The notes below the pieces were generated by a model. It had not been told where the DNA came from. It made no database searches and saw only the letters and a program-made list of their open reading frames with translations. A stretch of DNA of 64,000 nucleotides from Sulfitobacter sp. 20_GPM-1509m. Lineage in GTDB: Bacteria > Pseudomonadota > Alphaproteobacteria > Rhodobacterales > Rhodobacteraceae. Numbering within the stretch: position 1 is the stretch's first letter; every line of letters starts with the position of its first letter. The translations under genes were made by a program, and so were the position numbers. Shown one piece after another: positions 1,659 through 33,825 of this stretch. The stretch spans positions 186,001 to 250,000 of the forward strand of contig NZ_JIBC01000007.1 in the NCBI RefSeq assembly GCF_000620505.1, given 5' to 3'.

Positions 1659-1718
1659 CCAGCAGCCAACGGAACGCATGACAACGCGCATCGTTACACC
1701 GTGAGAGAGCGGGACCGA

Positions 1719-1766: not shown

Positions 1767-1795
1767 CAAAGGGCCTTCGGGAAGGACTGAGCAGT

Positions 1796-3189: not shown

Positions 3190-3205
3190 TTGACCTTTCC
3201 TTCCA

Positions 3206-3274
3206 CCTCATCCCCGCATTTCAAATGTCAACTGCCACTTTTCTAGGCGAAAGGTTGCCACTTCGGGGATGAGG
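3206..3274. repeat. Long inverted repeat downstream of the HIT gene
   Basis: CCTCATCCCCG (3206-3216) and CGGGGATGAGG (3264-3274) form a perfect 11-bp inverted repeat with a 47-base loop. Inside lie a small palindrome CATTTCAAATG (3217-3227) and two copies of TGCCACTT. No T-run follows, so it is not a classical terminator. It may be a structured RNA or a repeat-type element. Confidence 0.6.
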
Positions 3275-3362
3275 CCTATGCTTGTGACTGCGACCTAATT
3301 GCAGAAACGGGCGCGTTCCGGTTTTGACCTGCGCGACCCGTCACACTTGGAAGGGACAGTCC

Positions 3363-5003: not shown

Positions 5004-5027
5004 TCCGACAGTCAGCTTGAGAAAAAC

Positions 5028-5062
5028 AAAACGGCGGGTTTTCAACCTGCCGTTTTTTGTTT
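5028..5062 (+). terminator. Rho-independent terminator after the first BCCT gene
   Basis: AAACGGCGGGTT and AACCTGCCGTTT pair around a TTC loop, with one G-U pair, followed by a run of Ts from 5053. It separates the two BCCT genes transcriptionally. Confidence 0.85.
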
Positions 5063-5153
5063 TGTGGGTGTCGCTATCGACGCCTGTATTTTCGAACCTG
5101 CCCCGTAGCGTTGGCCGCATTAACAAAAACAAACAAAATCAGGGACAGAAAAA

Positions 5154-6815: not shown

Positions 6816-6835
6816 TTGGATCACAGCAATGTATG

Positions 6836-6867
6836 AAGGGGCCGCTCCGGTTGGGGCGGCCCTTTTT
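6836..6867 (+). terminator. Rho-independent terminator after the second BCCT gene
   Basis: AAGGGGCCGCTCC pairs with GGGGCGGCCCTT across a short loop, with two wobble pairs, and is followed by TTTTT at about 6863. Confidence 0.85.
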
Positions 6868-6949
6868 CGTGTCATGGTGAACCCTGCCGCCGCAACGTCC
6901 GCTTTATTCCCGTCTTGACCTTTGTCCGGGACAAAACCAACCTGCGCCC

Positions 6950-18268: not shown

Positions 18269-19060
18269 TCAGCCGAAATCGGGTCGACGCTTTTCCCGGA
18301 AGGCCGCGAGTCCACGCCCGAGGTCGTGACCCTCCACATGGCGCGCAAAGTGCTGATGTTCAGCCTCCATGCGCTGCTGTCGCCTGCGGTCGCGGGCTTC
18401 CGGGCCAGTCAGCGCCTTCAGGTGACGGGTCACTTCGGGACTGCAGGCCATGATCTCGGCGGCAAGGTCCTGCGCGCGGTCCATCAGCCGGTCTGCGGGC
18501 ACGACCTCATTGACCAGCCCCCAGTCGCGCAGCGTCTCTGCGGACTGGGTTGCGCCGGTGTAGAAAAGCTGCGCGGCCCGCGACGGTGCGATCCGTTCGG
18601 GCAGCCGCACCGTGGAGCCCGCTGCGGGGACGACGCCGTAGCAGGCATGGCCGTCGCCGATCTGCGCGCCCTCGGCGGCGATCAGGACGTCGCAGCACAG
18701 CAAAAGCTCCAGCCCGCCTGCAATCGCCACGCCGTTGACCGCGCCGATCACCGGCACCGGCAGGTCCTCGATCCGCTGGAGGATCATGGCGTTGCGCCGG
18801 AGATAATCGAGAAGCCGGTCCTGGCCCGCCGTCAGCGCCGTCTCGAATTCCAGCAGATCGCCCCCGGCGCAGAAGCCGCGCCCCGCGCCGGTGATGATCA
18901 CGGCGCGCAGATCCGGCACCTGCGACAGCGCATCAACCTGGCGGTCGAGCGCGCTCATCATCTCCTGCGACATGGCGTTGAGCGTATCCGGCCGGTCGAG
19001 CGTCAGGATCGCCAGGCCCTTGGAGAGGTCAAGCCGCACGGCCTCTGCCGACGCGGCCAT
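18269..19060 (-). CDS. Enoyl-CoA hydratase/isomerase family protein
   Basis: This 263-residue crotonase-fold enzyme has the oxyanion-hole segments GFCAGGDLLEF (62-72) and NGVAIAGGLELLLCCD (109-124). The first catalytic glutamate (E118, in GGLEL) is present, but the second, normally in a PE motif, aligns with H138 in GDGHACYG. A plain hydratase reaction on trans-enoyl-CoA is therefore uncertain; isomerase, lyase or hydrolase chemistry is possible. The ATG at 19060 overlaps the ligase stop by one base (TGATG). It is the last gene of the ABC/propeller operon. Confidence 0.85.
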   Translation of the reverse strand: MAASAEAVRLDLSKGLAILTLDRPDTLNAMSQEMMSALDRQVDALSQVPDLRAVIITGAGRGFCAGGDLLEFETALTAGQDRLLDYLRRNAMILQRIEDLPVPVIGAVNGVAIAGGLELLLCCDVLIAAEGAQIGDGHACYGVVPAAGSTVRLPERIAPSRAAQLFYTGATQSAETLRDWGLVNEVVPADRLMDRAQDLAAEIMACSPEVTRHLKALTGPEARDRRRQQRMEAEHQHFARHVEGHDLGRGLAAFREKRRPDFG

Positions 19061-20931
19061 CACGCGGACGCCGTCACGGTGAAGCCCTGCGGCAGCGGTT
19101 CCAGCGCCGCGCGCAGCGCCGTGATCTGGTCCGGGGTGGCGCCGGTAACGGCGACGCGGATCAGGGGTTTGCCGTGGGTGTCGGTGTCAAATTCGACCTG
19201 CGCCAAGGCGCCCGCGCCACAGGTGGCTTCGACCTCCAGGCGGACCTTTTCCCGGATGGCGTGATCGCGCAGCGCAGGTTTGAATATCTTGCCGACCGCC
19301 GTCACCGGCAGCGCGTCGATCTGAAGTATGTGGCGCGGCAGGGCGGGGCGTTCGTGCAGCTCTGCCTCCAACCTGTCGCGCAGGGCTTTCAGATCCGGAC
19401 GTGCGCCGGGCTCGGCAACGATGAAAAGCACCGGCACCTCGCCCGCATATTGGTCGGGCATTCCGACGGCGGCGCTGATCCCGATCCCCTCGAACCGGTT
19501 TGCCACCTCCTCGATCGCCGCAGGGTCGATATTGTGCCCGCTGCGGACAATCAGGTCCTTGGAGCGTCCGGTGAGGGTCAGGCGCCCGTCTTCCGACAGC
19601 GACCCGAGATCGCCCGTGGTGAGCCAGCCATCGGCATCAAGCACGCCTTCGTTCTGCGCCGGATCGGCATAGCCGGGAAAGACCTGCGGGCCGCGCACTT
19701 GCACGAGGCCCGGGGTGCCGGGCGGGCAGGGTGCGCCGGTATCGGACGACACGATCCGCGTTTCGGAAAACGGGGCGCGCAAGCCCACGCTGCCGGGGAC
19801 CGGCGTGCCTGCGGCAGGGTTGAAGGCGATGGCGGCGGCGGTTTCCGTCATCCCGTAGGTCTCGAACAGCGCAAGGCCGGTGACTTTGGTGAAGTGTTCG
19901 CCAACCGCAGCGGGCAGGATCGCGCCCCCTGTGCCCGCCATGCGGATACGCGAGGTGTCCATGTCCGGTGGGAAAGTGCCGGTCAATGCGCCGATGGAGG
20001 TCGGAACGCCGTTCACCATGGTCACGCCGTAATGCCGCACAAGGTCCCAGTACCGCGCAACCACCTCGGGTGGGCGCAGCGCGTAGGGGGAGGGGATGAT
20101 CATGTGCCCGCCCGCCGCGAGGACCGAAAGGCCGACGGTCACCGTGCCGCCCACATGGAACCACGGGAAGCCGTTGATGATCACGTCCGTCTCGTTATAG
20201 CCGAACACCTGCCCGAAGCCGAAGGCCGCGTGGATCTGGTTGCCATGGGTCAGGCGGACGACCTTGGGGCTTCCGGTGGTGCCGCCGGTGTGAAAGAGCG
20301 CGCAGATCGTGTCGCGGTCGGTCGCCGGGGCAAAGGCCAACCCGTCCGAAGCGGCGGCGGCCAGCAAGGGGGACAGCGGCTCATGACCCGCGCGGCCCTC
20401 GGTCTCGTCGCCGACCACGAGGATCCGCTTCAGCGAGGGCACGGCCGCCAGCAATCCTTCGGCCTTTTCCCAGCAGGTCGCGTCAAGATGGCGCGCGGGG
20501 ATCACAAGGACCTCTGCCCCCTGCACCTTAAGTAGGTCGGCGATGGCCCCGGCAGAGAGCAGGTAATTGATCGAACTGGTGATCCCGGCCACCTGCGCCC
20601 CCAGCATCAGAACCGGCACCTCGGCCAGCGTCGGGGTAAGGAAGGCCGCGACGCCTGTCCCCGGACGCAGCCCGAGCGCGTGGAACATGTTCGCCGACTG
20701 GGTGATCCCCGCCAGCAACTCTGTATGCGTGAGCGCGAGGCTTGCATCCTCCGGGTCGGGCGTGCGCAGGACCGTCAGGGCGGCACGCTCTCCATGTGCC
20801 GCGGCGGTCGCGCGGAAGAGGTCGTAGAGGTTTCGCGACGGCACGAGGTCGTCATAGGGCATGGCCTCGATCGCTTTGATGTCCTCAATGGTGCGGACAG
20901 GACGGACGGGACGGGTGGTTTTCAAGTTCAT
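19060..20931 (-). CDS. Acyl-CoA synthetase (AMP-forming)
   Basis: The 623-residue ANL-superfamily enzyme should activate a carboxylic acid with ATP and CoA. Adenylation motifs are complete: FHTGGTTGSPKVV (A3), FETYGMTETAA (A5), TGDLG (A7), GRSKDLIVRSGHNI (A8) and the catalytic lysine in TAVGKIFK (A10). About 60 extra residues after A10 make it longer than usual, as in some uncharacterised 620-630-residue synthetases. The substrate is not readable. Its start shares one base with the ATPase stop (TAATG). Placement after an importer and two propeller proteins suggests it activates the acid released from an imported ester or lactone. Confidence 0.9.
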   Translation of the reverse strand: MNLKTTRPVRPVRTIEDIKAIEAMPYDDLVPSRNLYDLFRATAAAHGERAALTVLRTPDPEDASLALTHTELLAGITQSANMFHALGLRPGTGVAAFLTPTLAEVPVLMLGAQVAGITSSINYLLSAGAIADLLKVQGAEVLVIPARHLDATCWEKAEGLLAAVPSLKRILVVGDETEGRAGHEPLSPLLAAAASDGLAFAPATDRDTICALFHTGGTTGSPKVVRLTHGNQIHAAFGFGQVFGYNETDVIINGFPWFHVGGTVTVGLSVLAAGGHMIIPSPYALRPPEVVARYWDLVRHYGVTMVNGVPTSIGALTGTFPPDMDTSRIRMAGTGGAILPAAVGEHFTKVTGLALFETYGMTETAAAIAFNPAAGTPVPGSVGLRAPFSETRIVSSDTGAPCPPGTPGLVQVRGPQVFPGYADPAQNEGVLDADGWLTTGDLGSLSEDGRLTLTGRSKDLIVRSGHNIDPAAIEEVANRFEGIGISAAVGMPDQYAGEVPVLFIVAEPGARPDLKALRDRLEAELHERPALPRHILQIDALPVTAVGKIFKPALRDHAIREKVRLEVEATCGAGALAQVEFDTDTHGKPLIRVAVTGATPDQITALRAALEPLPQGFTVTASA

Positions 20932-22427
20932 TAGTGCACCGCTGCGTACATGATGGTTTCCTCATCGGCCTGGGTGCCGACAAATTCTTCCACGATCCGG
21001 CCCTGTCGACAGACAAGGATACGGTCGGAGATATGCAGGATCTCGGGCAGGTAGGACGAAATCACCATCACCGCCACGCCGTCATCCGCCAGCCTGTTGA
21101 TCAACTGGTGGATCTCGGCGATGGCGCCGACGTCGACACCACGCGTCGGTTCGTCAAAGATCACGAGCTTGGGTTTCTGTACCAGCGCCTTGGCCACCAC
21201 GACCTTCTGCTGGTTGCCGCCTGACAGCTCGATCACCCGGGCGTCGTTGTTGATCGCCCGGACGCTCAGCGCCTCTGTCCATTCCGTTGCGATCCGCCTC
21301 ATCTCGCCCATCGAGATCGTGGCGGACTTTGTCTGCCCTCCGGCCATTGCGCCCATGTAGATGTTCTCGGCAATCGACATCGTCTCGAAGAAGCCTTCAA
21401 GCTTGCGGTCCTCGGTCACGTAGATGATCCCGTCGCGCACCGCCGGGCGGGGGACGCGGTAGCGCACCGGACGACCGTCCAGCCGCACCTGCCCGCCATG
21501 GAAGACGTCCCGTTTCATGACGCCCGAGACGACCTTCGCGGCCTCTGTCCGCCCGGACCCGATCAGGCCGAAGACTCCGGTGACCTGTCCCGAGAAGACC
21601 GAGAAGGAGGTATTCCGCACGATCTTGCCCATGGACAGGTTCTGCACGCTCAGCACCTTGCGACCGGCAGAGCGGACCTTGCGGTCATGGCTGTCGCCGT
21701 AAAGCTGATCCGTCAGGGACCGGCCCACCATGGCGCGCACGATCTTCTCACGGTCAAGCTCCGCCGTGCGGGCGGTCAGCACATGCTGCCCGTCGCGCAG
21801 GATGGTGACACGATCCGAAATCTCCAGCGCCTCTTCCAGCGCATGGCTGATGAAGATGATCGAAACGCCCCGGTCGCGCAGCCGCTCGACCAGGGCGAAG
21901 AACTGGTATTTCTCTTCGGGCGTCAGAGTCGCGGTCGGTTCGTCGAAGATGATGACCTTGGCGTTATGATGCACCGCGCGGGCGATCTCGACCATCTGTT
22001 TCTGACCGGCGCCAAGCGCTTCGACCAGCGCCGTCGGGTCGACGTTGAAGTTGAGCGACTGAAGGAACTGTTGACCCGCGATGTAGAGGCCGCGCAGCCG
22101 GTGAAAGGTCCGGTCGTCGGAAAGGTAGATGTTCTGCGCGACCGTGAGGGAGGGAACAAGGCTCGTCTCCTGATAGACCATGGCGATGCCGTGGGCGAGG
22201 GCATCTGACGGGGTGGTCAGGGTGACCTTCTGACCTGCCAGGAATATCTCGCCCGAGGTGGGGGCGACCACACCGGCCAGCATCTTGGTCAGGGTCGACT
22301 TGCCCGCGCCGTTTTCGCCAAGCAAGGCGTGGACCTCGCCGGGTTCCAGCGTGAAGGTGACGTCGCTTACGGCAGGGACGCCGCGATAGGCCTTGGTGCC
22401 GTTTCTGAGTTCAAGAAGCGGGGTCAT
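20931..22427 (-). CDS. CUT2-type (sugar) ABC transporter ATP-binding protein, double NBD
   Basis: The 498-residue protein carries two fused nucleotide-binding domains, as RbsA and MglA do. NBD1 has Walker A GENGAGKST, a degenerate signature LGAGQKQMVEIARA, and FDEPTATLTP. NBD2 has a degenerate Walker A (GSGRTEAA), the signature LSGGNQQK and FDEPTRGVDVGA. This is the family's standard asymmetry. The ATG at 22427 is preceded by AGGAGA; the open frame continuing upstream overlaps the propeller gene and is not coding. It overlaps the upstream gene by four bases, and energises the permeases encoded at 26727 and 23488. Confidence 0.93.
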   Translation of the reverse strand: MTPLLELRNGTKAYRGVPAVSDVTFTLEPGEVHALLGENGAGKSTLTKMLAGVVAPTSGEIFLAGQKVTLTTPSDALAHGIAMVYQETSLVPSLTVAQNIYLSDDRTFHRLRGLYIAGQQFLQSLNFNVDPTALVEALGAGQKQMVEIARAVHHNAKVIIFDEPTATLTPEEKYQFFALVERLRDRGVSIIFISHALEEALEISDRVTILRDGQHVLTARTAELDREKIVRAMVGRSLTDQLYGDSHDRKVRSAGRKVLSVQNLSMGKIVRNTSFSVFSGQVTGVFGLIGSGRTEAAKVVSGVMKRDVFHGGQVRLDGRPVRYRVPRPAVRDGIIYVTEDRKLEGFFETMSIAENIYMGAMAGGQTKSATISMGEMRRIATEWTEALSVRAINNDARVIELSGGNQQKVVVAKALVQKPKLVIFDEPTRGVDVGAIAEIHQLINRLADDGVAVMVISSYLPEILHISDRILVCRQGRIVEEFVGTQADEETIMYAAVH

Positions 22428-23491
22428 GGGCGGGTCTCCTCTGCGGGTAGGGCGATCACGAGGCCGTCCCCCCTGGCGGCGGCAAAGACCTGGCCATCGT
22501 GTTCCAGGACCGAGGTCACGCCGTGGGTTTGCCCGTCCGCACGGCTGTGCAGGCTGGCGACGGGTTGGAACGCCGCATCCAGACGGATGCAGAGCCCGGC
22601 CGAGAAGGTCGGCGCCCAGGGCTTCAGCCGTCCCAGCTGTTTCACCCCGCCGCCCTGAAGTGGTTCGTAGAAACTGCCGCCTGTGCGCAGACGCGGGGCG
22701 ATCCAGAAGTCGCGCTCGATGGTGGCGAGCATCTCGCCGCGGTATTTCGGCTCCCGCAGGACAAACTCGACGAGTTGGCTGCGCGGCGCGAAGGCGGCAA
22801 GCCAGTAGCCCTCCGGCGCTTTCGTGATCCGACCGGGATAGCCGGCGAGGTCGGGATAGAGGGTTTCGCGTGCCGCCGGGTTGGCAAGGTCGATGCGGGT
22901 CAGGCGATGTGCCCATGCTTCCGAGACCACAAGACCGCTGTCGGCAGAGACGACCCCTGCGGGCCAGGCCAGGTCGGTTGCAATCCGCGTGACCTCGCCA
23001 GTGGTCAGCTCGATCTGCCAGAGCGAGCCGGAGCTGTTCCGCTGCATCAGGTCAAGCTGCCAGTCGTCGGTCGTATTGGTGGCAGAGCCGTTTGCAAGGA
23101 AGAGAGAGGAGCCCGAGGCCGTCATTGCGGTGATGCAACGGGCCTCTGTCGCGATCTCGCGGCCGTCCATCTGACCGCCATGGATCTGCACCCGGCCGGA
23201 CGCCAGCGCGAGGGCAAGGGCGTCATCGCCGATCGGCGCGATGCAGGTGATCTCTGCCTCGCAGGTCCGCACGACACTCCAGGTCACGCCGTCCAGCCGG
23301 TAGAGCGCCATCCCGGACGACACATGCACCGCCCCTGCCGCAACCGCGAGGCAATCGGCCCCGGCAAGCGGCAGCCGCACCGGCGCCTGGTCAAGGGCCT
23401 GGTTGGGGCGCAGCGCCCCGTCCAGCGGCGGCACCGTCACGGCGGCGTCGCCGCGCCCGGTGAGGTTGTCCATCAGGCGGGTGAGGATCAT
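22424..23491 (-). CDS. Stand-alone SMP-30/strictosidine synthase-like beta-propeller, degenerate metal site
   Basis: The 355-residue protein has no signal peptide and shows propeller-blade repeats. WPAGVVSADSGLVVSEAWAH and PDLAGYPGRITKAPEGYWLA correspond to blades of the strictosidine synthase-like family. Compared with the propeller fused to the neighbouring permease, the metal-site asparagines are replaced: PAGV stands for PNGI and PGRI for PDNI, and the GPEDV glutamate motif is not seen. It is therefore more likely a binding or regulatory partner than a hydrolase, although the alignment is by eye. It overlaps both neighbours by four bases, so expression is tied to the transporter. Confidence 0.75.
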   Translation of the reverse strand: MILTRLMDNLTGRGDAAVTVPPLDGALRPNQALDQAPVRLPLAGADCLAVAAGAVHVSSGMALYRLDGVTWSVVRTCEAEITCIAPIGDDALALALASGRVQIHGGQMDGREIATEARCITAMTASGSSLFLANGSATNTTDDWQLDLMQRNSSGSLWQIELTTGEVTRIATDLAWPAGVVSADSGLVVSEAWAHRLTRIDLANPAARETLYPDLAGYPGRITKAPEGYWLAAFAPRSQLVEFVLREPKYRGEMLATIERDFWIAPRLRTGGSFYEPLQGGGVKQLGRLKPWAPTFSAGLCIRLDAAFQPVASLHSRADGQTHGVTSVLEHDGQVFAAARGDGLVIALPAEETRP

Positions 23492-25602
23492 GCCTTCCTC
23501 CAGTAGTTGTCCGGGCCTGTCCAGGCGGGGTCCATCCCCTCAAGCTTCAGGCGTCCGATGCGGTTGTTGGAAATGCCCCCGATGTAGAGATGCCCCTTGT
23601 GCTCGCGCATCGAGGTGATCATCGGGTGATTGTCGCCCTTCTTGTCCCAGAGGGTCTCGACCACGGTTCCTGCATCATCAAAGCGCACGACGCAGCCGGT
23701 GTTGATGTTCGGATAGAGCCATTCGTCGAAGGCGATCCGCCGGGCCATCCGCTTGCGAAAACCGGGCTGCTTCATCGCAAGGTCCATGGTCGGCGTGCGC
23801 ATCCCGACAAGCGCCAGCCAGTAGGTCCCGTCCGAGGCGCGGTTGATGTTGTCGGGGTAACCCGGCAGGTCGGGGATCACGACCTCGACCTCTCCGGCGC
23901 GGGGGCCGTCGAAGTAATAGCGGCTGATCCGGCAGGCCCAGGTTTCCGCGAAGTAGAAGCTCTGGCCGTCGTTTGCCATGCAGATACCGTTCGGGAAGAC
24001 GAGGCCTTTCAGAACCGTCCGGGTCGTGCCCCTGATGGGGTCATAGCAGATGATCCGCCCGTTGCCGCGCGACTCCAGGCTGTCGACGGACCATTCGGCC
24101 ATCTCGTAGCGGGTCGTCGCCTCGCTGAAGAAGACCCGCCCGTCCGGAGCGATGTCCAGATCGTCGGCAAGGCGCAGACGCGAGTCGTCGGTGACGGATA
24201 GAAGCGAGCGGTTCGTCTCATCTGTCAGTTTCTCGACCTTGCGGTCCTTGGTCACGCGGTACAGGCCCATGCCGCCGATGCAGACCAACAGCGCACCGTC
24301 GCGGTCGAAGGCCATGCCCAGGGGACGCCCCCCGACATGGGCGAAGATCTCTTGCCTGCTGTAGTCGGGCGCGAGGAAACGGATAATGTCACCGACGCGG
24401 TTGCCGGCATAGATGTTGTCGTCCTCGTCAAGGATGACGTCCTCCGGCCCGTCGATCTCACCCAGGCCGATCAGTTCGACACCCTGCAGTCGGTCGTTGA
24501 CGGCGTAGGGCGAGGGGGCCGTGGTGGCAGGTGCGGTCGGGAGGGTTGCGTAGGTGGGTGAGACATAGACCTTGGACAGCAGCTTGTGTTTGTTCTTCAG
24601 AAACCGCACGTCGATCGCCACCGCGCCCAGCAGGACCAGCCCGAGGAGCAGGGAGTTCGCACCGCTGTTCACGCCCATCCGGACAAGGCTGTTGACGAGG
24701 ATCATGACGGTGATCGACCCGATGACCGCTTTCGCCGCAGACCCGCGCCCTCCGCCAAGGCTGTTTCCGCCAAGCACCGCAGCCGTCAGCGCCGCGATCT
24801 CAAGCCCGACGCCGGTGTCCGCCCCGGCGCCCCCGAGACGTGAGGCAAAGAGCACACCGGCCAACGCGCAGAGCGTTCCCGAGACGACATAGGTCATGCA
24901 GATCACCCGGCGCACGGGGATGCCGACATTATGGGCCGAGCGGCGCGAGCCGCCGGTCGCCAGAACCGACCAGCCGGGGCGGGTGCGGCTGAAGACGATG
25001 TGAACCGTGATCGCGATCACGAGGGTGACGACGACCGAAACGGGGAGCGAAAAGATCGAGCCCTCGCCCAGGAAGTACCAGGCCTCGGAGTCGATGAAGG
25101 TCGAGGCGATGGAAACGGAATATGTCAGCAGCAGCATGTCCACGATGGCGCGGACGATGATCAGCGTGACGAGGGTTGTCAGAAAGGCCCGGAGCCTGAG
25201 GTATCCGACCAGCACGCCGTTCACGAGGCCAACCGCGGCACCACAGGCCATCGTCAGGACCACGACCAGCGGCCAGGGCAGGCCGCCGACGGTCAGGAGC
25301 GCGAGCGCCACGATATTACCGAGCGCGAAGGTCGACCCGACCGAGAGGTCGATGCCCCCCGCCACCATGACGATCATCAGCGCCATCACCAGCAGGGAAA
25401 ATTCGCCCCATTGCCGCAGCAGGTTGGCAATGCTCGACAGGCCGAAGAAGCCGGGGATCGCAAAGCCGAAGGCGGCGATGACGATCAGCAGGATCAACAG
25501 CGGGATCGCATTGTCGATCCAGCGCTTTGCTAGGATCTCGCCCAGCAGGTGGTCGGGGATGACGCGGTAGCGCCAGCGGAGGAAGGTATCGGCCATGCTC
25601 AT
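23488..25602 (-). CDS. ABC transporter permease fused to an SMP-30/strictosidine synthase-like propeller
   Basis: This 704-residue protein is a domain fusion. Residues 1 to about 335 form a complete CUT2-family permease with many helices and MVAGGIDLSVGSTFALGN, typical of RbsC-type permeases. A Pro/Thr/Ala-rich linker (about 345-370) leads to a full six-bladed propeller from about 375 to 704, with the family's GPEDVILDEDDNIYAGN, FPNGICMANDGQSFYFAETW and LPGYPDNINRASDGTYWLA segments. These hold the expected Glu and Asn metal ligands. In CUT2 permeases the C-terminus is cytoplasmic, so the propeller should sit at the inner face of the pore and could act on the substrate as it enters. Confidence 0.88.
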   Translation of the reverse strand: MSMADTFLRWRYRVIPDHLLGEILAKRWIDNAIPLLILLIVIAAFGFAIPGFFGLSSIANLLRQWGEFSLLVMALMIVMVAGGIDLSVGSTFALGNIVALALLTVGGLPWPLVVVLTMACGAAVGLVNGVLVGYLRLRAFLTTLVTLIIVRAIVDMLLLTYSVSIASTFIDSEAWYFLGEGSIFSLPVSVVVTLVIAITVHIVFSRTRPGWSVLATGGSRRSAHNVGIPVRRVICMTYVVSGTLCALAGVLFASRLGGAGADTGVGLEIAALTAAVLGGNSLGGGRGSAAKAVIGSITVMILVNSLVRMGVNSGANSLLLGLVLLGAVAIDVRFLKNKHKLLSKVYVSPTYATLPTAPATTAPSPYAVNDRLQGVELIGLGEIDGPEDVILDEDDNIYAGNRVGDIIRFLAPDYSRQEIFAHVGGRPLGMAFDRDGALLVCIGGMGLYRVTKDRKVEKLTDETNRSLLSVTDDSRLRLADDLDIAPDGRVFFSEATTRYEMAEWSVDSLESRGNGRIICYDPIRGTTRTVLKGLVFPNGICMANDGQSFYFAETWACRISRYYFDGPRAGEVEVVIPDLPGYPDNINRASDGTYWLALVGMRTPTMDLAMKQPGFRKRMARRIAFDEWLYPNINTGCVVRFDDAGTVVETLWDKKGDNHPMITSMREHKGHLYIGGISNNRIGRLKLEGMDPAWTGPDNYWRKA

Positions 25603-25661
25603 CTGTTACGTCTCACGTGCAAGGTTCGGCTGAAGCGCTGGGGTGTCACCGGCGCGCGGCG

Positions 25662-25687
25662 CCCTCTCCCCGGCGGGGGGGAGAGGG
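25662..25687. repeat. GC-rich palindromic hairpin between SBP and permease-propeller genes
   Basis: CCCTCTCCCC (25662-25671) pairs with GGGGAGAGGG (25678-25687) around a GGCGGG-type loop. There is no T-run. Such hairpins in GC-rich genomes often act as RNA stabilisers or dispersed repeats; here one could keep the binding-protein message more abundant than the downstream genes. Confidence 0.55.
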
Positions 25688-25708
25688 GGTGGGCGAGGGC
25701 AAAGCCCC

Positions 25709-26701
25709 TTACTGCCCGGGCAGGCTCCAGCAGGATCCCGGCTTCATGTTGGCCTTGGTCAGGAAGTCGAGCGGGGTGAAGAGGGTGGTCTTCATCGTCC
25801 CCGCTTCGGGGTTCAGCTGGAACAGCTGCTTGATCATGTCTGCCATGTCGCGGGCCTGGCCGGGGACGCTGTAGACCACGACCTCGTCATAGGTGCCGTC
25901 CTCCAGGCCGTCACAGGCCGATTGGTTGCCGCCGCCCTGCGTCAGAAGGTAGACGTCCTTGCCGCTGTCCTTGATCGCGGCGGCGGTGCCCACATCCATC
26001 ACGTCCCAGAAGCCCGCGATGGCACAGAGGTCCGGATGCTGCTGGATCACGGTCGCGGCGATGTTGCGCGCCTTGGTGGCGTCCCAGTCGGCGGCCTGGT
26101 TCGAGACAAGCTGGATCTCTGGATGCTGTTCCAGCACGGTGTTGATCCCCTTCATCTGATAGGCGGAGGCCGCCGCCGTCAGCACGCCCTGCGTAATCGC
26201 GATCTTGCCGCTGCCGCCGTTCGCGGGCGCGCAGACCTCGACCAGCCGCTCGCCGATCTGTTCGCCCATGCCGATGTAATCCGCACCGATGAAGGCGGCT
26301 GTCGAATAGCTGGAGCGCATGTTCACCTGGACGACATGAATGCCGGCATCCTCGGCCTTCTTGAGAAGCCGGGCATAGGACTGGACGTCGGGGTTGTGCA
26401 CGACCATCACGTCCGGCTTTTCGTCGATCAGTGAGGTGATCGCCTGTGCCCCTGCCGAGGTGCTCCAGTTCGGATCGCGGATTTCGAAATTGACGCCAAG
26501 CGGCTCAAGCGCGTCGCGCAGGCCCATGGCCCAGCCCTCGGTCAGGTCAAAGCCCATGGCGACGGGCACGTAAGCCACCGTGCGGTCCTTGAAGGCGTCG
26601 TAATATTCGGCCCGGGTCGGGTCGTCGATGCCCTGGGCCAGCGCCATGCCTGCGCCCGCAGTGATACCGGCCGCAAGGGCCATCGTCTTCATCATTTCCA
26701 T
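25709..26701 (-). CDS. Periplasmic substrate-binding protein of the CUT2-like ABC importer
   Basis: The 330-residue protein begins with a signal peptide (MALAAGITAGAGMALAQG, cleavage near residue 23) and continues as a type I periplasmic-binding fold: TVAYVPVAMGFDLTEGWAMG, DVMVVHNPDVQSYARLL, and QGGGNQSACDGL towards the C-terminus. This is the RbsB/sugar-binding class. The ligand need not be a sugar, because the operon also encodes propeller hydrolase-like proteins and a CoA ligase. It starts 25 bases after the first permease gene and is followed by a hairpin. Confidence 0.9.
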   Translation of the reverse strand: MEMMKTMALAAGITAGAGMALAQGIDDPTRAEYYDAFKDRTVAYVPVAMGFDLTEGWAMGLRDALEPLGVNFEIRDPNWSTSAGAQAITSLIDEKPDVMVVHNPDVQSYARLLKKAEDAGIHVVQVNMRSSYSTAAFIGADYIGMGEQIGERLVEVCAPANGGSGKIAITQGVLTAAASAYQMKGINTVLEQHPEIQLVSNQAADWDATKARNIAATVIQQHPDLCAIAGFWDVMDVGTAAAIKDSGKDVYLLTQGGGNQSACDGLEDGTYDEVVVYSVPGQARDMADMIKQLFQLNPEAGTMKTTLFTPLDFLTKANMKPGSCWSLPGQ

Positions 26702-26726
26702 TGTGTTTCCTCCCTATGGAACGGTG

Positions 26727-27701
26727 TCAGATATCCCCCTGCTGAGCGGTCTGCTCGTCGCGGGGGTTGAGGATCGTGTCGATCACGATCGCGGTAAGAA
26801 GGATGACGCCCTTGATGATGTTCTGGACGGTGTACTGGATATCCATGATCGTCATGCCGTTCAGCAGAACGCCGATCAGCAGGGTCCCGACCACGATGTT
26901 GCGCACCGCCCCGCGCCCTCCGGACAGGCCGATGCCCCCCAGAACGACAACAAGGATCACGTCGTAGACATAGGTGGAATTCGCCACCCGCGTGTTCATC
27001 GAGGCGACCGAGGCCGCGGTCACGAGGCCCGCGACAAATCCGATCATCGCCGCGATCATGTATTGCGTCAGGATCATGGGGCGGGCCGGCACGCCGGTGA
27101 TCCGGGCCGCCGCGTAATTGTCGCCGACCGCACGCAGGTAGCCGCCCGCCTTGGTGTAGCGCAGGAACAGATGCGCGATTGCGCAGACAAGGGCGAAGAC
27201 GACGATCGGGGCAGGGATGCCAAGGACCGTGCCGTCGCCCAGCCACCGCAGCGCCTCGGCGCCGGGGGTGAAATAGATGACGTCCAGATTGAACATGAAG
27301 TAGCGGCCAAAGCCGTAGATCGCCGTGCCCATGGCCAGCGTCGCAAAGATCGCCGGGATCTCGACATAGGCCACGAGAAAGCCGTTGATCAGCCCTGTCG
27401 CCAGGCTGAATCCCAGCCCGAGCACCAATGCCTGTGGCAGCGGCAGGCCGGTCGAAATCAGCTGCAATGTCGAGGCGACCGAGATCGCCATCAGCGCGAC
27501 CAGTGACAGATCAATGCCGCGTCCGATCACCACCAGCCCCATGGCTACGCCGAGAATCCCCAGGATCGAGACGCTGCGCACGAGGTTCAGGATGTTGTTG
27601 GTCGTCAGGAACCCCGGCAAGGTCAGCGCAAAGACGACGCAGAGCGTCACGGCCAGACCAAACACGATCTGTTCCTGGCTCAAACTTCCCAATCTGCGCA
27701 T
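26727..27701 (-). CDS. CUT2-type ABC transporter permease, first gene of the operon
   Basis: The 324-residue membrane protein has the RbsC-type core GLVVIGRGIDLSLVALMAIS and VILVVVLGGIGLSGGRGAV. The ATG at 27701 is preceded by GGGAGGG at good spacing; an upstream in-frame extension would add a soluble tail rich in charged residues and is rejected. With the permease half of the fusion protein it would form a heterodimeric channel, so each transporter would carry one propeller. The gene diverges from the AraC-type regulator across 236 bases. Confidence 0.92.
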   Translation of the reverse strand: MRRLGSLSQEQIVFGLAVTLCVVFALTLPGFLTTNNILNLVRSVSILGILGVAMGLVVIGRGIDLSLVALMAISVASTLQLISTGLPLPQALVLGLGFSLATGLINGFLVAYVEIPAIFATLAMGTAIYGFGRYFMFNLDVIYFTPGAEALRWLGDGTVLGIPAPIVVFALVCAIAHLFLRYTKAGGYLRAVGDNYAAARITGVPARPMILTQYMIAAMIGFVAGLVTAASVASMNTRVANSTYVYDVILVVVLGGIGLSGGRGAVRNIVVGTLLIGVLLNGMTIMDIQYTVQNIIKGVILLTAIVIDTILNPRDEQTAQQGDI

Positions 27702-27782
27702 GTCGGCCCTCCCGTTGCCTGCCCTCATGACGACGGCTGGGATCACCGTAGAAGGCAGGTCGGCCCCCCGTCTTTTCTCAGG

Positions 27783-27808
27783 GTGCAGAGGAGTTTCACG
27801 AGAGTGCA
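27783..27808. promoter_or_regulatory. Candidate AraC-type operator: GTGCA direct repeats
   Basis: GTGCA occurs at 27783-27787 and again at 27804-27808, in the same orientation, 21 bases apart (two helical turns). Direct half-sites at that spacing are usual for AraC-family proteins, and the site lies between the regulator and the operon it probably controls. The half-sites are short, so this is a weak call. Confidence 0.3.
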
Positions 27809-27937
27809 CTTTACAAATCTTGCTGAACGCGCCCTTCCAGGCTTATCATCTTACTCAGCTACTGGGCGGGACCTCGGGGCACGGACGCGGGGAGGCGTCC
27901 GCCGAAGGCCTTTCGTCCAGCGCGGAGGAGGTGTTTC

Positions 27938-28876
27938 ATGGACGAAGTGTTCTCGACCGAGCAGTTGCCGCGTGAACGGCGCTACAACGCCTGGCGCGAT
28001 GCGATCTGCGATTGTTACGTGCATGTCGACGTCACCGCGACCTACCCTCAGAATTACCGCGGCTTCATTCGTCAGGCGGTCTTCGGAAACATCGTCCTCA
28101 CCGACGTTCTGGCCTCGCAGCAATCGATCCGCCGCAATGCGCGCCACATCTCGCAACTGGAAAAGGATTGCTATTACCTGCAGTTCATCCTGCAAGGTAA
28201 CCTGCTGGTGCACCAGCGCGGCCAAAGCCATGTCTCGAATGCCGCGCGGGGGACGATGTTCTACGCCACCGAACAATATGAACTGCAGGGCCGGGACGAG
28301 GTGCGGTCCTTTTATCTGGAACTGCCGCGCGCCGATTTCGCGGACCGTTTCCCGAAGCAAAGCGTCCCGGTGTCGGCCAGTTTCGACAGCAGCCGGGGCA
28401 TGGGGCGCATCGCGACAGAATTCTGCAGCATGCTGGCGTCGGAAAGTGACGGGCTGGACTCAGGCGCACGACGGCAGCTTGGCAATCAGCTGATGGATAT
28501 GCTGGCGATCACCCTTCAGTCCTCGAACGAGGACACACCGGTGCTGGACGGGTCCGTCCGGCAGGCCAGGTTGCGCTCGGTCAAACTGTGGATCGAGGAC
28601 CGGCTGACCGATCCTGACCTCGACCTCGACGACATCGCGGCGGCGAACGGGATCTCGCGGCGGTACCTGCATCAACTCTTCAAACTGGAAGAGAAAACCG
28701 TGTCGCAATGGATCTGGGATCGGCGGCTGCAGCGCTGCTACGCCGAACTTGCCAAACGCGACGGTCGGCTGATCACCTCGATCGCCTACGAGAACGGATT
28801 TAACAGCTCGGCGCATTTCTCGACGATGTTCCGCAAGAAATACGGTGTATCCCCTCGCGAGAGCCTGGCCATCTAA
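27938..28876 (+). CDS. AraC family transcriptional regulator
   Basis: The 312-residue protein has an N-terminal ligand/oligomerisation domain of the AraC-binding-like cupin type (residues about 20-190) and a C-terminal pair of helix-turn-helix units. The first is in LDDIAAANGISRRYLHQLFK. The second is in ITSIAYENGFNSSAHFSTMF, ending FRKKYGVSPRE, the family's signature. GGAGGAGG precedes the ATG. It is transcribed divergently from the ABC/propeller operon and is its likely activator, responding to the imported compound or its CoA ester. Confidence 0.92.
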   Translation: MDEVFSTEQLPRERRYNAWRDAICDCYVHVDVTATYPQNYRGFIRQAVFGNIVLTDVLASQQSIRRNARHISQLEKDCYYLQFILQGNLLVHQRGQSHVSNAARGTMFYATEQYELQGRDEVRSFYLELPRADFADRFPKQSVPVSASFDSSRGMGRIATEFCSMLASESDGLDSGARRQLGNQLMDMLAITLQSSNEDTPVLDGSVRQARLRSVKLWIEDRLTDPDLDLDDIAAANGISRRYLHQLFKLEEKTVSQWIWDRRLQRCYAELAKRDGRLITSIAYENGFNSSAHFSTMFRKKYGVSPRESLAI

Positions 28877-29302: not shown

Positions 29303-30982
29303 TCAGCTTGCCGAATAGGTAACCTGACCGTCGCAGATTGTGACCACCGCCTTGGCGTCTGTGATCTTTTCGGGCGCAAGCGTGGTCACGTCGTGGCTGA
29401 GGATCGCCACATCTGCCATCATCCCTGCTTTCAACTTGCCTTTGCGGTCCTCGTTGAACTCGACCCAGGCATTGTCGCGGGTGTAGCTGGCCAGCGTGTC
29501 GGTCAGGCTTTGGGTCTGGTCGCGCCACTTTGGTCCCAGATCCAGCGGGGCGATGGCCGCCTTGATCGTGTCCATCACGTCGACCTGAATAACCGGCCAG
29601 TCGGTCGAGAAGATCACCTTGGCGCCGGTGTTGCGGATGTCCTGCCAAGCATAGGCCCCGGCGATCTGGTCGTCATGCAGGTATTGGCCGACAGCCGAAG
29701 GCGGAAAGATATGGCCGCGCGGCGCATGGCCGGGCTGGATCGAGGCAACGATGCCAAGTTCGGCCAGACGCGGAATGTCGTCCAGGTGCATCACCTCAAG
29801 GTGTTCGATCCGGTGGCGGCTGTCGCGCACGCCGTTGGCCTTTTGCGCCGCCTCGTAGGCGTCGATGGTGCGCCGCACGGCGGCGTCGCCAATGGCATGT
29901 ACAGCGATCTGGAATCCAAGGCGGTCCGCCTCGATGGCGCTGGCGACGAAATGATCCTGGGTAAAGACCTCGTCGCCTGTATTCCCATCTTTGCCCAGAT
30001 CGCCGGGGTAGGGGCGCAGCATCAGCGCAGTGCCGCTTTCGATCACCCCGTCGATGAACATTTTCACGTGGTTGCAACGGAGCTTGTCGCCTTGAAACCG
30101 GGCCCGCATTTCCGGGGCATCCTGCGTCATGCGTTCGATCGGATCGGTGCCTTTCATATGAAACGGCACTTCGCACCGGCACAAAAGACGACCCTCGGTT
30201 TCAAGCTCGCTGAGCAGTTCCAGCTGATAGACGTTGCCGTCCATCAGGTGCAGGCTGGTGATGCCCTGTGCGGCACAATGTTTCAGGCCGGCCTCGATGG
30301 CATCCTTGTCCATCTCGCGCTGGTCCTTGGTGGCGGGCGGCACCGGGTCCTTGCCGGTGGTCAGGCCCATCATTTCGCGGCCCGCGTGACGCGTCATCAT
30401 CAGGATCGGACCGTAGGCACCCGGTTCCAGCAGTTCACCGCTGGCCAGTCCGTCGTCGCCCATGACGATCTGCGATCCTGCATCGACCGGTCCGCCCTGC
30501 AGCAATCCCGCGGCCTCAAGCGCTGCCGTGTTGGCCCAGACTGTATGATGATCAGGCGCGAACATCGCCAGCGGGCGATCCGGCAGGATGGTGTCCAGAT
30601 CCTGACGGGTCAGGGTCTTGCCAGTGCCCAGAATGCCGTAGTCGGCCATCACGCAAAAGATCAGCGTGTCGTCAGGGTTGGCCGCAGCATAGGGCAGGAT
30701 CTTTTCGCGCATCTCGTCCAGCCCGTGCATACCGTAAAGGCTGAGCTGGGACAGCTCGACCGAGCCGCCGAACAGGTGAACGTGGCTGTCGATGAAACCG
30801 GGCAGCACGGTGCCCCCTTTGGCGTCAATCATACGGGTGGCGTCGTCAGCCAATCCCTTGACCATGGCGTCGTCGCCGATGGCGGTGATGCGCCCGTTGG
30901 CAATCGCCAGCGCCTGTGCCTGCGGCTGATCAGGATCGAAAGTGATCAGGTTGCCGTTATGAATGATGATGTCAGCCGTCAT
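29303..30982 (-). CDS. Amidohydrolase family protein (YtcJ-like)
   Basis: The 559-residue protein belongs to the amidohydrolase_3/YtcJ group. It has the metal-binding GFIDSHVHLFGG after an N-terminal beta domain (IIIHNGNLITFDPDQPQA), HRIEHLEVMHLDDIPRL in the barrel, and FSTDWPVIQVDV with the catalytic aspartate. The family hydrolyses C-N bonds of exocyclic or cyclic amides, with poorly known substrates. The ATG at 30982 follows GAGG; an upstream ATG at 30997 lies within the terminator region. It follows the Pot-type importer genes on the same strand but a strong terminator lies between them. Confidence 0.9.
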   Translation of the reverse strand: MTADIIIHNGNLITFDPDQPQAQALAIANGRITAIGDDAMVKGLADDATRMIDAKGGTVLPGFIDSHVHLFGGSVELSQLSLYGMHGLDEMREKILPYAAANPDDTLIFCVMADYGILGTGKTLTRQDLDTILPDRPLAMFAPDHHTVWANTAALEAAGLLQGGPVDAGSQIVMGDDGLASGELLEPGAYGPILMMTRHAGREMMGLTTGKDPVPPATKDQREMDKDAIEAGLKHCAAQGITSLHLMDGNVYQLELLSELETEGRLLCRCEVPFHMKGTDPIERMTQDAPEMRARFQGDKLRCNHVKMFIDGVIESGTALMLRPYPGDLGKDGNTGDEVFTQDHFVASAIEADRLGFQIAVHAIGDAAVRRTIDAYEAAQKANGVRDSRHRIEHLEVMHLDDIPRLAELGIVASIQPGHAPRGHIFPPSAVGQYLHDDQIAGAYAWQDIRNTGAKVIFSTDWPVIQVDVMDTIKAAIAPLDLGPKWRDQTQSLTDTLASYTRDNAWVEFNEDRKGKLKAGMMADVAILSHDVTTLAPEKITDAKAVVTICDGQVTYSAS

Positions 30983-30996
30983 GTATGCCTCGTGCA

Positions 30997-31030
30997 TGAA
31001 AAAACGCGGCCCCCGTCGAAAGGGGCCGCA
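30997..31030 (-). terminator. Rho-independent terminator after the Pot-type binding protein gene
   Basis: On the minus strand GCGGCCCC (31029-31022) pairs with GGGGCCGC (31013-31006) and is followed by TTTTTT (31004-30999). It separates the importer operon from the amidohydrolase gene. Confidence 0.85.
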
Positions 31031-31043
31031 CTGAGAGAACTGT

Positions 31044-32069
31044 TTATTTCAGCAAGTCTGTCCAGATTGCCGTGTACAGCTTGGACGCCGACGGCGGACA
31101 AGTCTTCGCCACGTAAGCGGCGCCTTTCAGCTCTTCCGGCACAACGATTTCCGGCGCTGTCTTCATGTCTTCGGGCAGGAATTCCTCAGACCCGGCGATC
31201 CCGTTGGCATATCGGGCAAAAGACGACAGCATTGCCGCGTTTTCGGGGTCCATGATGAAGTTCAGGAAGATCTTGGCATTGTCGACGTTCTGCGCGTCGG
31301 CCAGAATCGCCGCGTTGTCCATCCAGACGGGATAGCCTTCTTGCGGATAGCCAAAGGCGATGTCTGCATTGTCCACGCGCGAACGGAACGAAGCGCCGTT
31401 CCAGTTTACACCGGCGGCCAGATCGCCTTTGGCAAACTTTTCGATATTGCCATAGTCCATCGACACCCAGAACGGCTTGGCCGCCTTAAGCACGTCGCGG
31501 ACCTTCATCAGCGTTTCCTTGTCGTCTGTGCATTGCTCGCCACCGACATAGTGGATTGCCATGCCCATCACGTCGTTCATTTCCGGCACCACGTTGATCT
31601 TTCCCTTCAGCTCTTCGGGTGGATCAAAGACCACTGCAGCGGTGTTGATGTCGCCACCATATACTGCGGTGTTCACGGTCACACCCACGGTGCCCCATTG
31701 CCATGGCACCGTGTAGTTGCGGCCGGGGTCAAATTCGACATCGACCCACTGCGGATCCATGTTCTTGAAGTTTTCCATCTCGTTTGGCTTGGATTCCATC
31801 AACAGACCTTCCTGGATGAAGATCGGCACATAAGTGCCTGATGGAACGACAATATCAAAGCCGTGGCCGCCAGCCTTGATCTTGGCCAGTGCGGTGTCGT
31901 TGCTGTCATAATCGGTGACCGTCACCTTGATGCCCGTCTCGGCCTCGAACTTTTCGATCATCTCGGGGCTGGTATAGTTGCCCCAGTTGTAGATGTTCAG
32001 CGCGCCATCGGCAAAGGCCGGGCTGCTGATCGCCATCAGCGCGGCGATGCTTGTCAGTGTCTTTTTCAT
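31044..32069 (-). CDS. Polyamine-type ABC transporter substrate-binding protein (PotD/PotF-like)
   Basis: The 341-residue protein starts with a signal peptide (MKKTLTSIAALMAISSPAFA). The mature part has the PotD/PotF pattern LNIYNWGNYTSPEMIEKFE, VTDYDSNDTALAKI, VVPSGTYVPIFI and later AAGVNWNGASFRSRV. The ligand is probably a polyamine or a related cationic compound, but this family also binds other amines, and the downstream amidohydrolase leaves that open. It is the last gene of the importer operon (ATPase, permease, permease, binding protein) and ends in a strong terminator. Confidence 0.9.
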   Translation of the reverse strand: MKKTLTSIAALMAISSPAFADGALNIYNWGNYTSPEMIEKFEAETGIKVTVTDYDSNDTALAKIKAGGHGFDIVVPSGTYVPIFIQEGLLMESKPNEMENFKNMDPQWVDVEFDPGRNYTVPWQWGTVGVTVNTAVYGGDINTAAVVFDPPEELKGKINVVPEMNDVMGMAIHYVGGEQCTDDKETLMKVRDVLKAAKPFWVSMDYGNIEKFAKGDLAAGVNWNGASFRSRVDNADIAFGYPQEGYPVWMDNAAILADAQNVDNAKIFLNFIMDPENAAMLSSFARYANGIAGSEEFLPEDMKTAPEIVVPEELKGAAYVAKTCPPSASKLYTAIWTDLLK

Positions 32070-32096
32070 GATAGACTCCCAGTTGATTTTTATCGT

Positions 32097-32897
32097 TCAG
32101 GTCTTGAGTTTGCTGAGGGCGGTAAAGGCGACAACCATGGTCACCGAAATCCCCAGCAGTACGGTCGAGATCGCGTTGACCTCGGGCGTGACGACGCGAC
32201 GCAACTGCCCCAGCATATAGGTGGGCAGCGTGTCTTGTCCGGCAGATTTTACAAATTCCGTGATCACCACATCATCAAGGCTGATCACAAAGGCCAGCAT
32301 CGCACCGGCCAGGATGCCGGGCCACAGTTGCGGCAAAGTGATGCGCGTGAACACGCGAAAGGGGGGCGCATAAAGGTCGGCGGCAGCCTGTTCCAGCGCC
32401 AGATCCATCCCGATCAGCCGCGCGCGGATGGGCAGATAGGCAAAGGGGATACAGAACGCCGTGTGCGCTATCACGAGATACATCAGCCCGGTGTAGCCCG
32501 TCGCCACCTTGATCATCGCGAAAAAGATCAACAGCGCCACGGCGGTGACGATCTCGGGCACCATCAGCGGTTGGTTGATCATGGCAAAGACGGCCGCCTG
32601 ACCCTTGAACTTACGCGTCCGCGTGGTGGCCAATGCAGCCAGCACCGCGAGCGTGGTTGAGATGGCCGAGGCCCAGAAGGCAATCACAAGGCTGCGAATG
32701 GTCGCTTCCTGAACCTGTTGATTGTCCCATGCAGAGACATACCAGCGCCAGGAAAACCCTTCCCAGATCGCGATGGATGTGCCCGCGTTGAACGAATAGA
32801 TCACCAGCAAAAAGATCGGCATGTACAGCAGGACAAAGGTGACGACCGCGATCGTCCTGAACCCGGGCATCTGTTGAATCTGAAAACGTTTAGCCAT
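32097..32897 (-). CDS. Polyamine-type ABC transporter permease (PotC-like)
   Basis: The 266-residue membrane protein has six predicted helices and the EAA loop near EQAAADLYAPPFRVFTRITL, where it contacts the ATPase. VISLDDVVITEFV is the conserved segment of the PotC class. It overlaps the upstream permease gene by eight bases and lies 27 bases before the binding-protein gene, so the four genes form a single unit. Confidence 0.9.
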   Translation of the reverse strand: MAKRFQIQQMPGFRTIAVVTFVLLYMPIFLLVIYSFNAGTSIAIWEGFSWRWYVSAWDNQQVQEATIRSLVIAFWASAISTTLAVLAALATTRTRKFKGQAAVFAMINQPLMVPEIVTAVALLIFFAMIKVATGYTGLMYLVIAHTAFCIPFAYLPIRARLIGMDLALEQAAADLYAPPFRVFTRITLPQLWPGILAGAMLAFVISLDDVVITEFVKSAGQDTLPTYMLGQLRRVVTPEVNAISTVLLGISVTMVVAFTALSKLKT

Positions 32898-33825
32898 GTC
32901 CCGGACCCTCTTTTCCTGCGGTGCGCACGTAAGCCATCAGCGCCACCATAACGATCGCCAGCAGGGTGATCGAAAGCGCCGCCCCAAGCGGCCAGTTGCG
33001 TCCCTGTCCGAATTGCAACTCGATCAGGTTGCCGATCATCAACTGGTTGCCGCCGCCCATCACGCGCGGCGTCACATAGGCGCCCAGCGAGGGCACGAAG
33101 ACCAGGATAGATCCTGCAATTACCCCCGGCTTGACCAGCGGCAGGATGATCCGCCGCAGCACCTTCATACGGGTGGCATAAAGATCGTATCCCGCCTCGA
33201 CCAACGAGAAATCCAGACGTTCCATAGAGGCGTACAGCGGCAGGACCATCAGCGGCAGATAGACGTAGATCATGCCGACAAGGATCGAGAATTCGGTGAA
33301 CAATATCTGGATCGGTTCGTCGATCAGGCCGGTCCACATCAACAGCGTGTTGATCGTGCCTTCGTTGCGGATCAGCTCGACCACGGCAAAGGTGCGGATC
33401 AGGATATTCGTCCAGAACGGGATGATGATCAGCAGCATCCACAGGTCGCGCTGTTGCTTGGGCCGCGTGGCGATGAAATAGGCGGTGGGAAAGCCGAAGA
33501 CGATGCAGCCCACGGTGGTCATCAACGACAGTTTGACCGACCGCCAGAAGATCGACAAATGCGCGCTGGACCAGCTGAGCGTGTCATCGAAAATATCGCG
33601 CTGCATGAACACGTTGAACCAGGCATCGCCCGTCGGTTTCCAGACGACGCCGCCATAGTCCGCCGGCGTCAGCATGGAATAGACCAGCGTGATCAGCAGC
33701 GGGCCGGAGGCGGCGAACAGCAACACGACAAGGGCAGGTGCCAACAACATCCAGCGCACACGGCTGGCGCGTTTTTCCGCGACGGTGGCGTAGGAGGCGG
33801 GGGGAGCGCTGTCTGTCATGCTCAA
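32890..33825 (-). CDS. Polyamine-type ABC transporter permease (PotB-like)
   Basis: The 311-residue protein has a short cytoplasmic N-terminus, six to seven membrane helices, and the EAA loop [31 protein letters not shown] and [17 protein letters not shown] are typical of PotB-type permeases. It pairs with the PotC-like subunit. The start overlaps the ATPase stop by four bases (ATGA), a coupling that should keep subunits in step. Confidence 0.9.

Follow-up and report, generated by a model that had tools for sequence, protein, structure and literature searches.

Among the described systems, the ATP-binding cassette (ABC) importers of the CUT2 type (RbsABC, AraFGH, YtfQRT-YjfF) and the propeller hydrolases of the SMP-30/gluconolactonase/DFPase/paraoxonase kind stand closest to the operon that is considered here. 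The operon lies in a stretch of 64,000 nucleotides (nt) of Sulfitobacter sp. 20_GPM-1509m (NZ_JIBC01000007.1, positions 186,001-250,000, forward strand), which is called the window in the following and whose own numbering is used. Like the CUT2 importers, which take up sugars and related compounds, it has one ATPase gene with two nucleotide-binding domains, BPD_transp_2 permeases and a Peripla_BP_4 binding protein. Unlike in those importers, one permease bears a propeller, predicted to be cytoplasmic, the transporter operon includes a gene for a second propeller, and the neighbouring genes of such operons relate chiefly to coenzyme A (CoA), alcohol and aldehyde metabolism, although sugar genes are found near two loci (L023 and L024). 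The propeller that is fused to the permease resembles the above hydrolases in its fold and its metal-ligand positions, and differs from them in being joined to a membrane permease and in having a partner propeller without the site; closest by sequence, and among the closest by fold, is the strictosidine synthase-like family that includes rice TGW6 (8kg3). A likeness to the fusion is presumably also offered by QsdH, which we take to be a lactonase joined to a protein of membrane-transporter type. The parts differ, as QsdH combines a GDSL hydrolase with an RND-type protein, whereas here a propeller sits on an ABC importer. In the available excerpt of the report on QsdH, it is an acyl-homoserine lactone lactonase within an RND-type inner-membrane protein (PMC3466314). 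The parts at our locus are thus of known kinds and it is their arrangement that is new: neither the fusion importer nor the operon was described in the open-licence papers among the matches listed, in line with a preliminary description of the locus that had proposed an undescribed system. On balance we consider it probable, judging from the sequences, that a lactone or ester is imported, that it is cut beside the channel and that the resulting acid is converted to a CoA thioester.

The genes that had been described as a tightly overlapped minus-strand operon of seven with a divergent AraC-type gene were all eight recovered at the expected coordinates, and are given below with the predicted operator.

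27938..28876, plus strand: AraC-family regulator (AraC_binding_2 and HTH_18, Pfam), divergent from the operon
27772..27808, minus strand: predicted AraC operator, a direct repeat TGC[AG]...TGC[AG] with a 21-base period, presumed to be bound by the regulator
26727..27701, minus strand: permease 1 (BPD_transp_2, Pfam on 26727-27809; start corrected to the ATG at 27701)
25709..26701, minus strand: substrate-binding protein (Peripla_BP_4, Pfam), with an N-terminus that is signal-peptide-like by eye
23488..25602, minus strand: permease-propeller fusion (permease about residues 1-345, propeller about residues 365-704; Pfam)
22424..23491, minus strand: propeller 2, a probable pseudo-enzyme partner related to the fused propeller, metal site lost
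20931..22427, minus strand: double ATPase (two ABC_tran stretches, Pfam)
19060..20931, minus strand: acyl-CoA ligase (AMP-binding plus C-terminal domain; Pfam, NCBIfam)
18269..19063, minus strand: crotonase-fold enzyme (Pfam; sequence alignment)

The overlaps of one or four bases that had been claimed for the last five genes were measured as 4 nt (fusion/propeller 2), 4 nt (propeller 2/ATPase), 1 nt (ATPase/ligase) and, for ligase/crotonase, 4 nt with a GTG start at 19063 or 1 nt with an ATG start at 19060. Permease 1 appears more likely to begin at residue 37 of the frame as listed, an ATG at 27701, than at the GTG at 27809, because the longer frame would enclose the conserved repeat at 27772-27808. 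Of the 15 further loci of the window's clade (see below), 8 began to align with the longer frame at its residue 31-34, 4 contained a stop codon in the upstream part and 3 (L027, L028, L032) aligned fully without a stop. A G+C-rich inverted repeat (CCCTCTCCCC...GGGGAGAGGG) was seen between the binding-protein and fusion genes (window 25603-25708); it may reduce the expression of the downstream membrane genes.

The first five genes of the operon, i.e. permease, binding protein, permease-propeller fusion, second propeller and double ATPase, in that order, were recovered as a cassette from other bacteria. A protein search of plasmid records returned 15 records in which at least 80% of the fusion was covered by one place, and the five-gene order was identical in all 8 of these that were fetched. 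From a scan of genome contigs, 79 distinct loci were kept as the best among the contigs encoding a propeller relative, which numbered at least 433; the fused state was checked for these best contigs only. The fused form was present in all 87 loci examined (the frame being cut by a contig end in 2), and the cassette was contiguous and in order in 73 of them, while another 10 were cut by contig ends, 3 were broken by one extra gene of the binding-protein family (L062, L078, L089) and the remaining one (L048) was otherwise arranged, divergently. The cassette is sparse, with a fused propeller in 4 of 244 genomes of the order. What had been claimed to be a single catabolic system is instead a five-gene importer cassette that adjoins different genes in other bacteria, and its occurrence beside varying breakdown enzymes suggests a reusable import-and-cut device. 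One unit of fixed function was rejected, as the core holds its order while the neighbours vary. In the annotated plasmid records listed, the fusion is named solely by its propeller (SMP-30/gluconolactonase/LRE family protein) or solely by its permease. Two cassettes occur in tandem on a Mesorhizobium contig (L032, 2-3398 and 6842-16369), the second fusion being 65% identical to that of the window over its last 267 residues, and genome G024 also holds two copies.

The domain matches of the fusion comprise BPD_transp_2 (best stretch residues 58-327), followed by SSL_N, Str_synth and SGL (Pfam). By sequence, the fused propeller was nearest to rice TGW6 (5.3e-30) and then to strictosidine synthases, with DFPase far behind; by Foldseek, strictosidine synthase 2fp9 ranked best, followed by TGW6, DFPase, SMP30 and lactonases. 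The six-bladed fold was assigned from these Foldseek neighbours, not by counting blades in the model. TGW6, which shares 22% identity with the fused propeller in the fold alignment, is a hydrolase of indole-3-acetic acid (IAA)-glucose according to the available part of its description (PMC10958001). The residues named there for TGW6 were transferred by sequence alignment and gave E387, D480, N538 and N585 as the predicted metal-ligand positions of the fused propeller, D480 standing at the place of N167, so that there are two acidic residues here versus one in TGW6 (PMC10958001, available part). Each of the 88 fusion rows retained all four ligand types; 86 have Asp at position 480 and 2 have Asn, and the latter two have one acidic residue among the four where the others have two. 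The fused propeller is probably an ester- or lactone-splitting enzyme.

For propeller 2 neither Pfam nor NCBIfam gave a match at E 0.001, but profile alignment related it to the fused propeller with a probability of 99.8%, and its AlphaFold2 model had a mean predicted local distance difference test score (pLDDT) of 90.9 and a predicted template modelling score (pTM) of 0.89 (the AlphaFold alignments for the two proteins used 69 and 47 rows). The four-ligand metal site was found in none of the 82 propeller 2 rows (of 86) that the counts take in: the place of N585 was Arg in 75 of them, and that of E387 was still Asp or Glu in 74. Other positions, including S316, H323 and G324, were invariant (82/82), which indicates that propeller 2 is under selection for something else. 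We regard it as a probable pseudo-enzyme partner without a metal site. Of the two propellers, only the fused one, to which the opening of the compound had been ascribed, retains the metal-ligand positions.

The permease part of the fusion was modelled with ten membrane helices; nine of them coincide with hydropathy peaks, and the remaining one, the eighth, was positioned manually on the basis of the model. Across the aligned fusions, the loops facing the same side as the termini averaged 4.1, 0, 1.9, 3.4, 1.1 and 3.9 Lys plus Arg residues, and those facing the opposite side 0 to 0.1. This charge bias predicts a cytoplasmic propeller, located at the channel exit. Propeller 2 did not show, by eye, a signal-peptide-like N-terminus such as that of the binding protein. 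The earlier proposal that the compound is imported and then opened fits in the order of its steps, with the qualification that a cytoplasmic propeller would cut during or after transport.

To describe the changing neighbourhood we defined an in-operon neighbour as a same-strand gene of at least 120 residues within 200 nt, found by a custom gene caller that missed some annotated genes (e.g. the HMG-CoA reductase gene of L018). Among the 71 loci outside the window's clade, 45 yielded together 110 neighbours and the other 26 had no qualifying gene. The commonest were CoA-transferase III (9), short-chain dehydrogenase (8), aldehyde dehydrogenase (7) and zinc alcohol dehydrogenase (7), followed by AMP-binding proteins (4) and crotonases (4). 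Four groups of neighbours could be distinguished, the families being read on one representative per cluster: i) degradative 3-hydroxy-3-methylglutaryl-CoA (HMG-CoA) reductase, which exceeded its NCBIfam cut-off in the one representative scanned, with CoA-transferase III, crotonase and an HMGL-like protein; ii) zinc alcohol dehydrogenase with aldehyde dehydrogenase, in some loci also with CoA-transferase III; iii) short-chain dehydrogenase with MmgE/PrpD and a relative of 3-hydroxyisobutyrate dehydrogenase; and iv) ligase with acyl-CoA dehydrogenase. No sugar kinase was present among the matches listed (25 of 66 neighbour families), and ordinary sugar catabolism is not favoured for the window. 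On a fusion tree of 86 of the 88 rows (length >600; quick method), five cargo labels required 8 changes versus a mean of 24.1 after shuffling, and none of 200 shuffles gave a number as low; the labels are loose in that L071 lacks a member of the alcohol dehydrogenase cluster and that L065 and L088 share only part of the acyl-CoA dehydrogenase set. The HMG-CoA reductase cargo accounted for three changes on the drawn tree, at least two by the starred branches, and L018 stood apart from the other loci with this cargo. In L018 (Shinella sp. HZN7 plasmid pShin-02, 6591-14678) the annotated degradative HMG-CoA reductase gene immediately precedes the cassette. Downstream of its operon, L034 (17231-19138) encodes a protein in which an AP_endonuc_2 domain is combined with an HPPD N-terminal domain, as in dehydroshikimate dehydratases; this may hint at plant-derived aromatic acids.

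The window itself groups with 15 other rows; all 16 bear the label ligase plus AraC, and the set has a support of 99. In the 15 other loci of this clade an AraC match lies upstream on the opposite strand in every case, a ligase is present in 14 (the contig of L039 ends ahead of it) and a crotonase in 13, with a partial match in L029, of which about 64 residues are visible; the crotonase of L027 is truncated where its contig ends. Of the 14 loci that have both ligase and crotonase, 8 encode the two in a single open frame. The conserved synteny of the fusion with the ligase, which had been put forward as a check, is thus borne out, as the set recurs with its divergent AraC gene in a supported clade. 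One more locus, the seventeenth, is L103 of Bradyrhizobium liaoningense, which branches at a great distance from this set; its fusion, ligase and AraC protein are 59%, 55% and 52% identical to those of the window. Among 244 genomes of the order, three had a ligase of at least 60% identity (the window's own, G098 and G078), the next best being 42%; among 385 genomes of the class (E up to 1e-150), the search gave G000, G283 (59%) and G444 (55%). The importer ATPase or the whole cassette adjoins the ligase in 4 of the 5 distinct genomes with a close ligase orthologue, so that in these samples the ligase and crotonase genes do not occur mostly without the transporter, the finding that had been named as contrary to the proposal. 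In the fifth genome (G078, L139:5900-15222) the ligase-crotonase frame lies on the same strand as genes for CoA-transferase III, a carboxylesterase, a short-chain dehydrogenase and an SBP_bac_5 importer, and in L029 (17477-20637) a tripartite ATP-independent periplasmic (TRAP) carboxylate transporter (DctP, DctQ, DctM) is encoded between the ligase and the start of the crotonase match. These two contexts hint that the substrate of the ligase is a carboxylic acid, which in the window would be released from an ester or lactone.

The nearest NCBIfam model of the ligase was PRK07529 (536.7 bits, below the cut-off of 632), and its AMP-binding and AMP-binding_C matches exceeded the Pfam cut-offs. 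Crotonases usually have two catalytic glutamates, of the Glu144 and Glu164 types in the customary numbering. The present enzyme kept the first in 14 of 14 rows and had His, in a DGH motif, at the place of the second, likewise in 14 of 14. With this Glu and His the crotonase may not be an ordinary hydratase; the proposed crotonase-fold step after the ligase fits the gene arrangement, and it might be a hydration, an isomerisation or a cleavage of the thioester. A siderophore-type mevalonyl-CoA chemistry was considered and dismissed: SidH (7oeq) matches the crotonase at 1.1e-30, yet many crotonases score higher. Nor could a substrate be taken from solved relatives, those of the ligase, the crotonase and the binding protein (best match of the latter in the PDB by sequence 1.4e-16) being too distant or too general.

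The best NCBIfam model of the AraC gene product was FeaR (126.7 bits, below the cut-off of 199). Upstream of the operons we found TGC[AG] to be repeated after exactly 17 bases, i.e. with a 21-base period, in 17 of 17 regions (the window, the 15 clade loci and L103). In dinucleotide-shuffled sets, 0.6 of the 17 regions matched on average and never more than 3, and other spacings (10-29) reached at most 2; the regions are related, a kinship outside the reach of the shuffles, and most other columns nonetheless differ. In L103 the repeat sits between the AraC gene and the ligase gene, which is the first gene there. The longer repeat pattern matched once in the window and twice in the whole genome, the other match being on contig 1 and possibly a chance occurrence. 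We consider the repeat a probable operator of the AraC protein. Beside the AraC gene, on the minus strand of window 29303-33825, lie a gene for an Amidohydro_3 protein (Pfam) and genes that resemble, judged from their translations, a spermidine/putrescine-type ABC importer.

The mechanism that we prefer would run as follows. The periplasmic binding protein would catch a small, uncharged lactone or ester, which may be an ester of a sugar with an acyl group, and the CUT2-type permease pair with the double ATPase would carry it inward at the expense of ATP. The propeller on the cytoplasmic end of the permease would then hydrolyse it by a metal site of the DFPase/SMP-30 type and so trap the product as a free carboxylic acid, while propeller 2 would pair with the fused propeller or regulate it. 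The ligase would make the CoA thioester of the released acid and the crotonase would act on that thioester, with a direct hand-over where the two form one chain; the AraC protein would sense the compound or its product and act at the direct repeat. The order of import, hydrolysis, CoA activation and crotonase action, as it had been proposed before, is consistent with the anatomy of the operon, the chemistry being conjectural. In a wider and more tentative version, which we would call possible rather than probable, the cassette is a general import-and-hydrolyse ABC machine, its permease ending in a hydrolase that sits at the channel exit and is paired with a dead sister propeller, and the exchange of neighbours fits the machine to different lactones or esters; in such a machine the substrate of one group would probably be mevalonolactone-like.

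Several observations weigh against the proposed hydrolytic import. The metal site of TGW6 is described, in the available part of PMC10958001, as partial, with one acidic residue and no obvious calcium peak, so that the residues alone are no proof of metal catalysis. AlphaFold2 modelled the fusion with moderate confidence (pLDDT 80.6, pTM 0.72), and segments 466-476, 497-510 and 624-633 of the model fall below a pLDDT of 50, the first of them immediately preceding D480. Hydropathy alone gives nine peaks, and nine helices would set the propeller outside, in contradiction to the charge pattern. The family counts are descriptive, with neither a background set nor a test of enrichment, and the cargo labels are hand-made, with 42 of the 86 tree rows unlabelled and not counted. 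In 4 of the 7 loci of the PrpD group (L060, L067, L072, L079) the genes that define it are encoded on the opposite strand. In L023 (Pantoea sp. At-9b, 607-7708) a same-strand run with annotated genes of the dihydroxyacetone kinase and triose-phosphate isomerase families and a sugar-binding regulator, a sugar-type setting at odds with the CoA pattern, ends 223 nt before the cassette, narrowly outside the 200-nt limit, and the L024 cassette has a xylose isomerase gene at a distance of no more than 10 kb; sugar catabolism may thus be a possibility for the cassette as a whole. Finally, L103 has no crotonase match, and G078 has ligase and crotonase without a propeller importer.

The chief alternative, which we hold to be rather unlikely, is that both propellers are non-catalytic and form a cytoplasmic sensing or docking module that gates the importer by the level of product, the acid being imported as such. 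It would accommodate the loss of the metal site in propeller 2, the TRAP carboxylate transporter beside the same ligase in L029 and the TGW6 structure with no obvious calcium peak (PMC10958001, available part). Conservation of the four ligand types in all fused propellers is beyond what the fold alone should need, and the carboxylesterase beside the ligase-crotonase frame is found in the sole genome, G078, that has this frame without the propeller importer; both speak for hydrolysis.

As a special case of the hydrolytic import, the substrate could be an acyl-sugar ester such as a plant-type 1-O-acylglucose, whose sugar half would explain the CUT2 importer and whose acyl half would explain the ligase and crotonase. 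The nearest solved propeller by sequence is, after all, an IAA-glucose hydrolase, and several hosts of the clade bear the names of plant-associated genera. TGW6 is a distant relative, however, no gene of a sugar-handling enzyme is found in the window operon and the HMG-CoA reductase cargo suggests mevalonate-like acids, so that we think this substrate unlikely.

That ligase and crotonase are unrelated downstream passengers is very improbable: they do exist without the importer in G078, and outside the window's clade the importer lacks both, save for the ligase of L103, but the overlaps of 1-4 nt in the window, the conservation throughout the clade, the coupling of ligase and AraC to a distant importer in L103, with the same repeat, and the importer beside the ligase in four of five genomes all tie them to it. 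Least probable of all is a condensation of the strictosidine-synthase type in place of hydrolysis, to which the best Foldseek match (2fp9) and the invariant E667 in a REHKG motif point, the latter aligning with the QEHDG stretch of the plant enzyme where presumably the catalytic Glu309 of the Rauvolfia synthase resides, as the hydrolase metal-ligand set is complete and the neighbour families look mostly catabolic.

In phosphotransferase group translocation the substrate is chemically altered on entry and thus trapped. If the hydrolytic import is true, the substrate of the present importer would likewise be changed and trapped while entering, unlike in the phosphotransferase system by unrelated proteins, by hydrolysis instead of phosphorylation and with ATP as the source of energy. 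Many bacteria would then possess importers of an uncharacterised class that unite transport with the initial catabolic step in one chain, a form of group translocation within the ABC class, and the neighbouring genes would allow the substrates to be guessed group by group, above all for the group with the HMG-CoA reductase.

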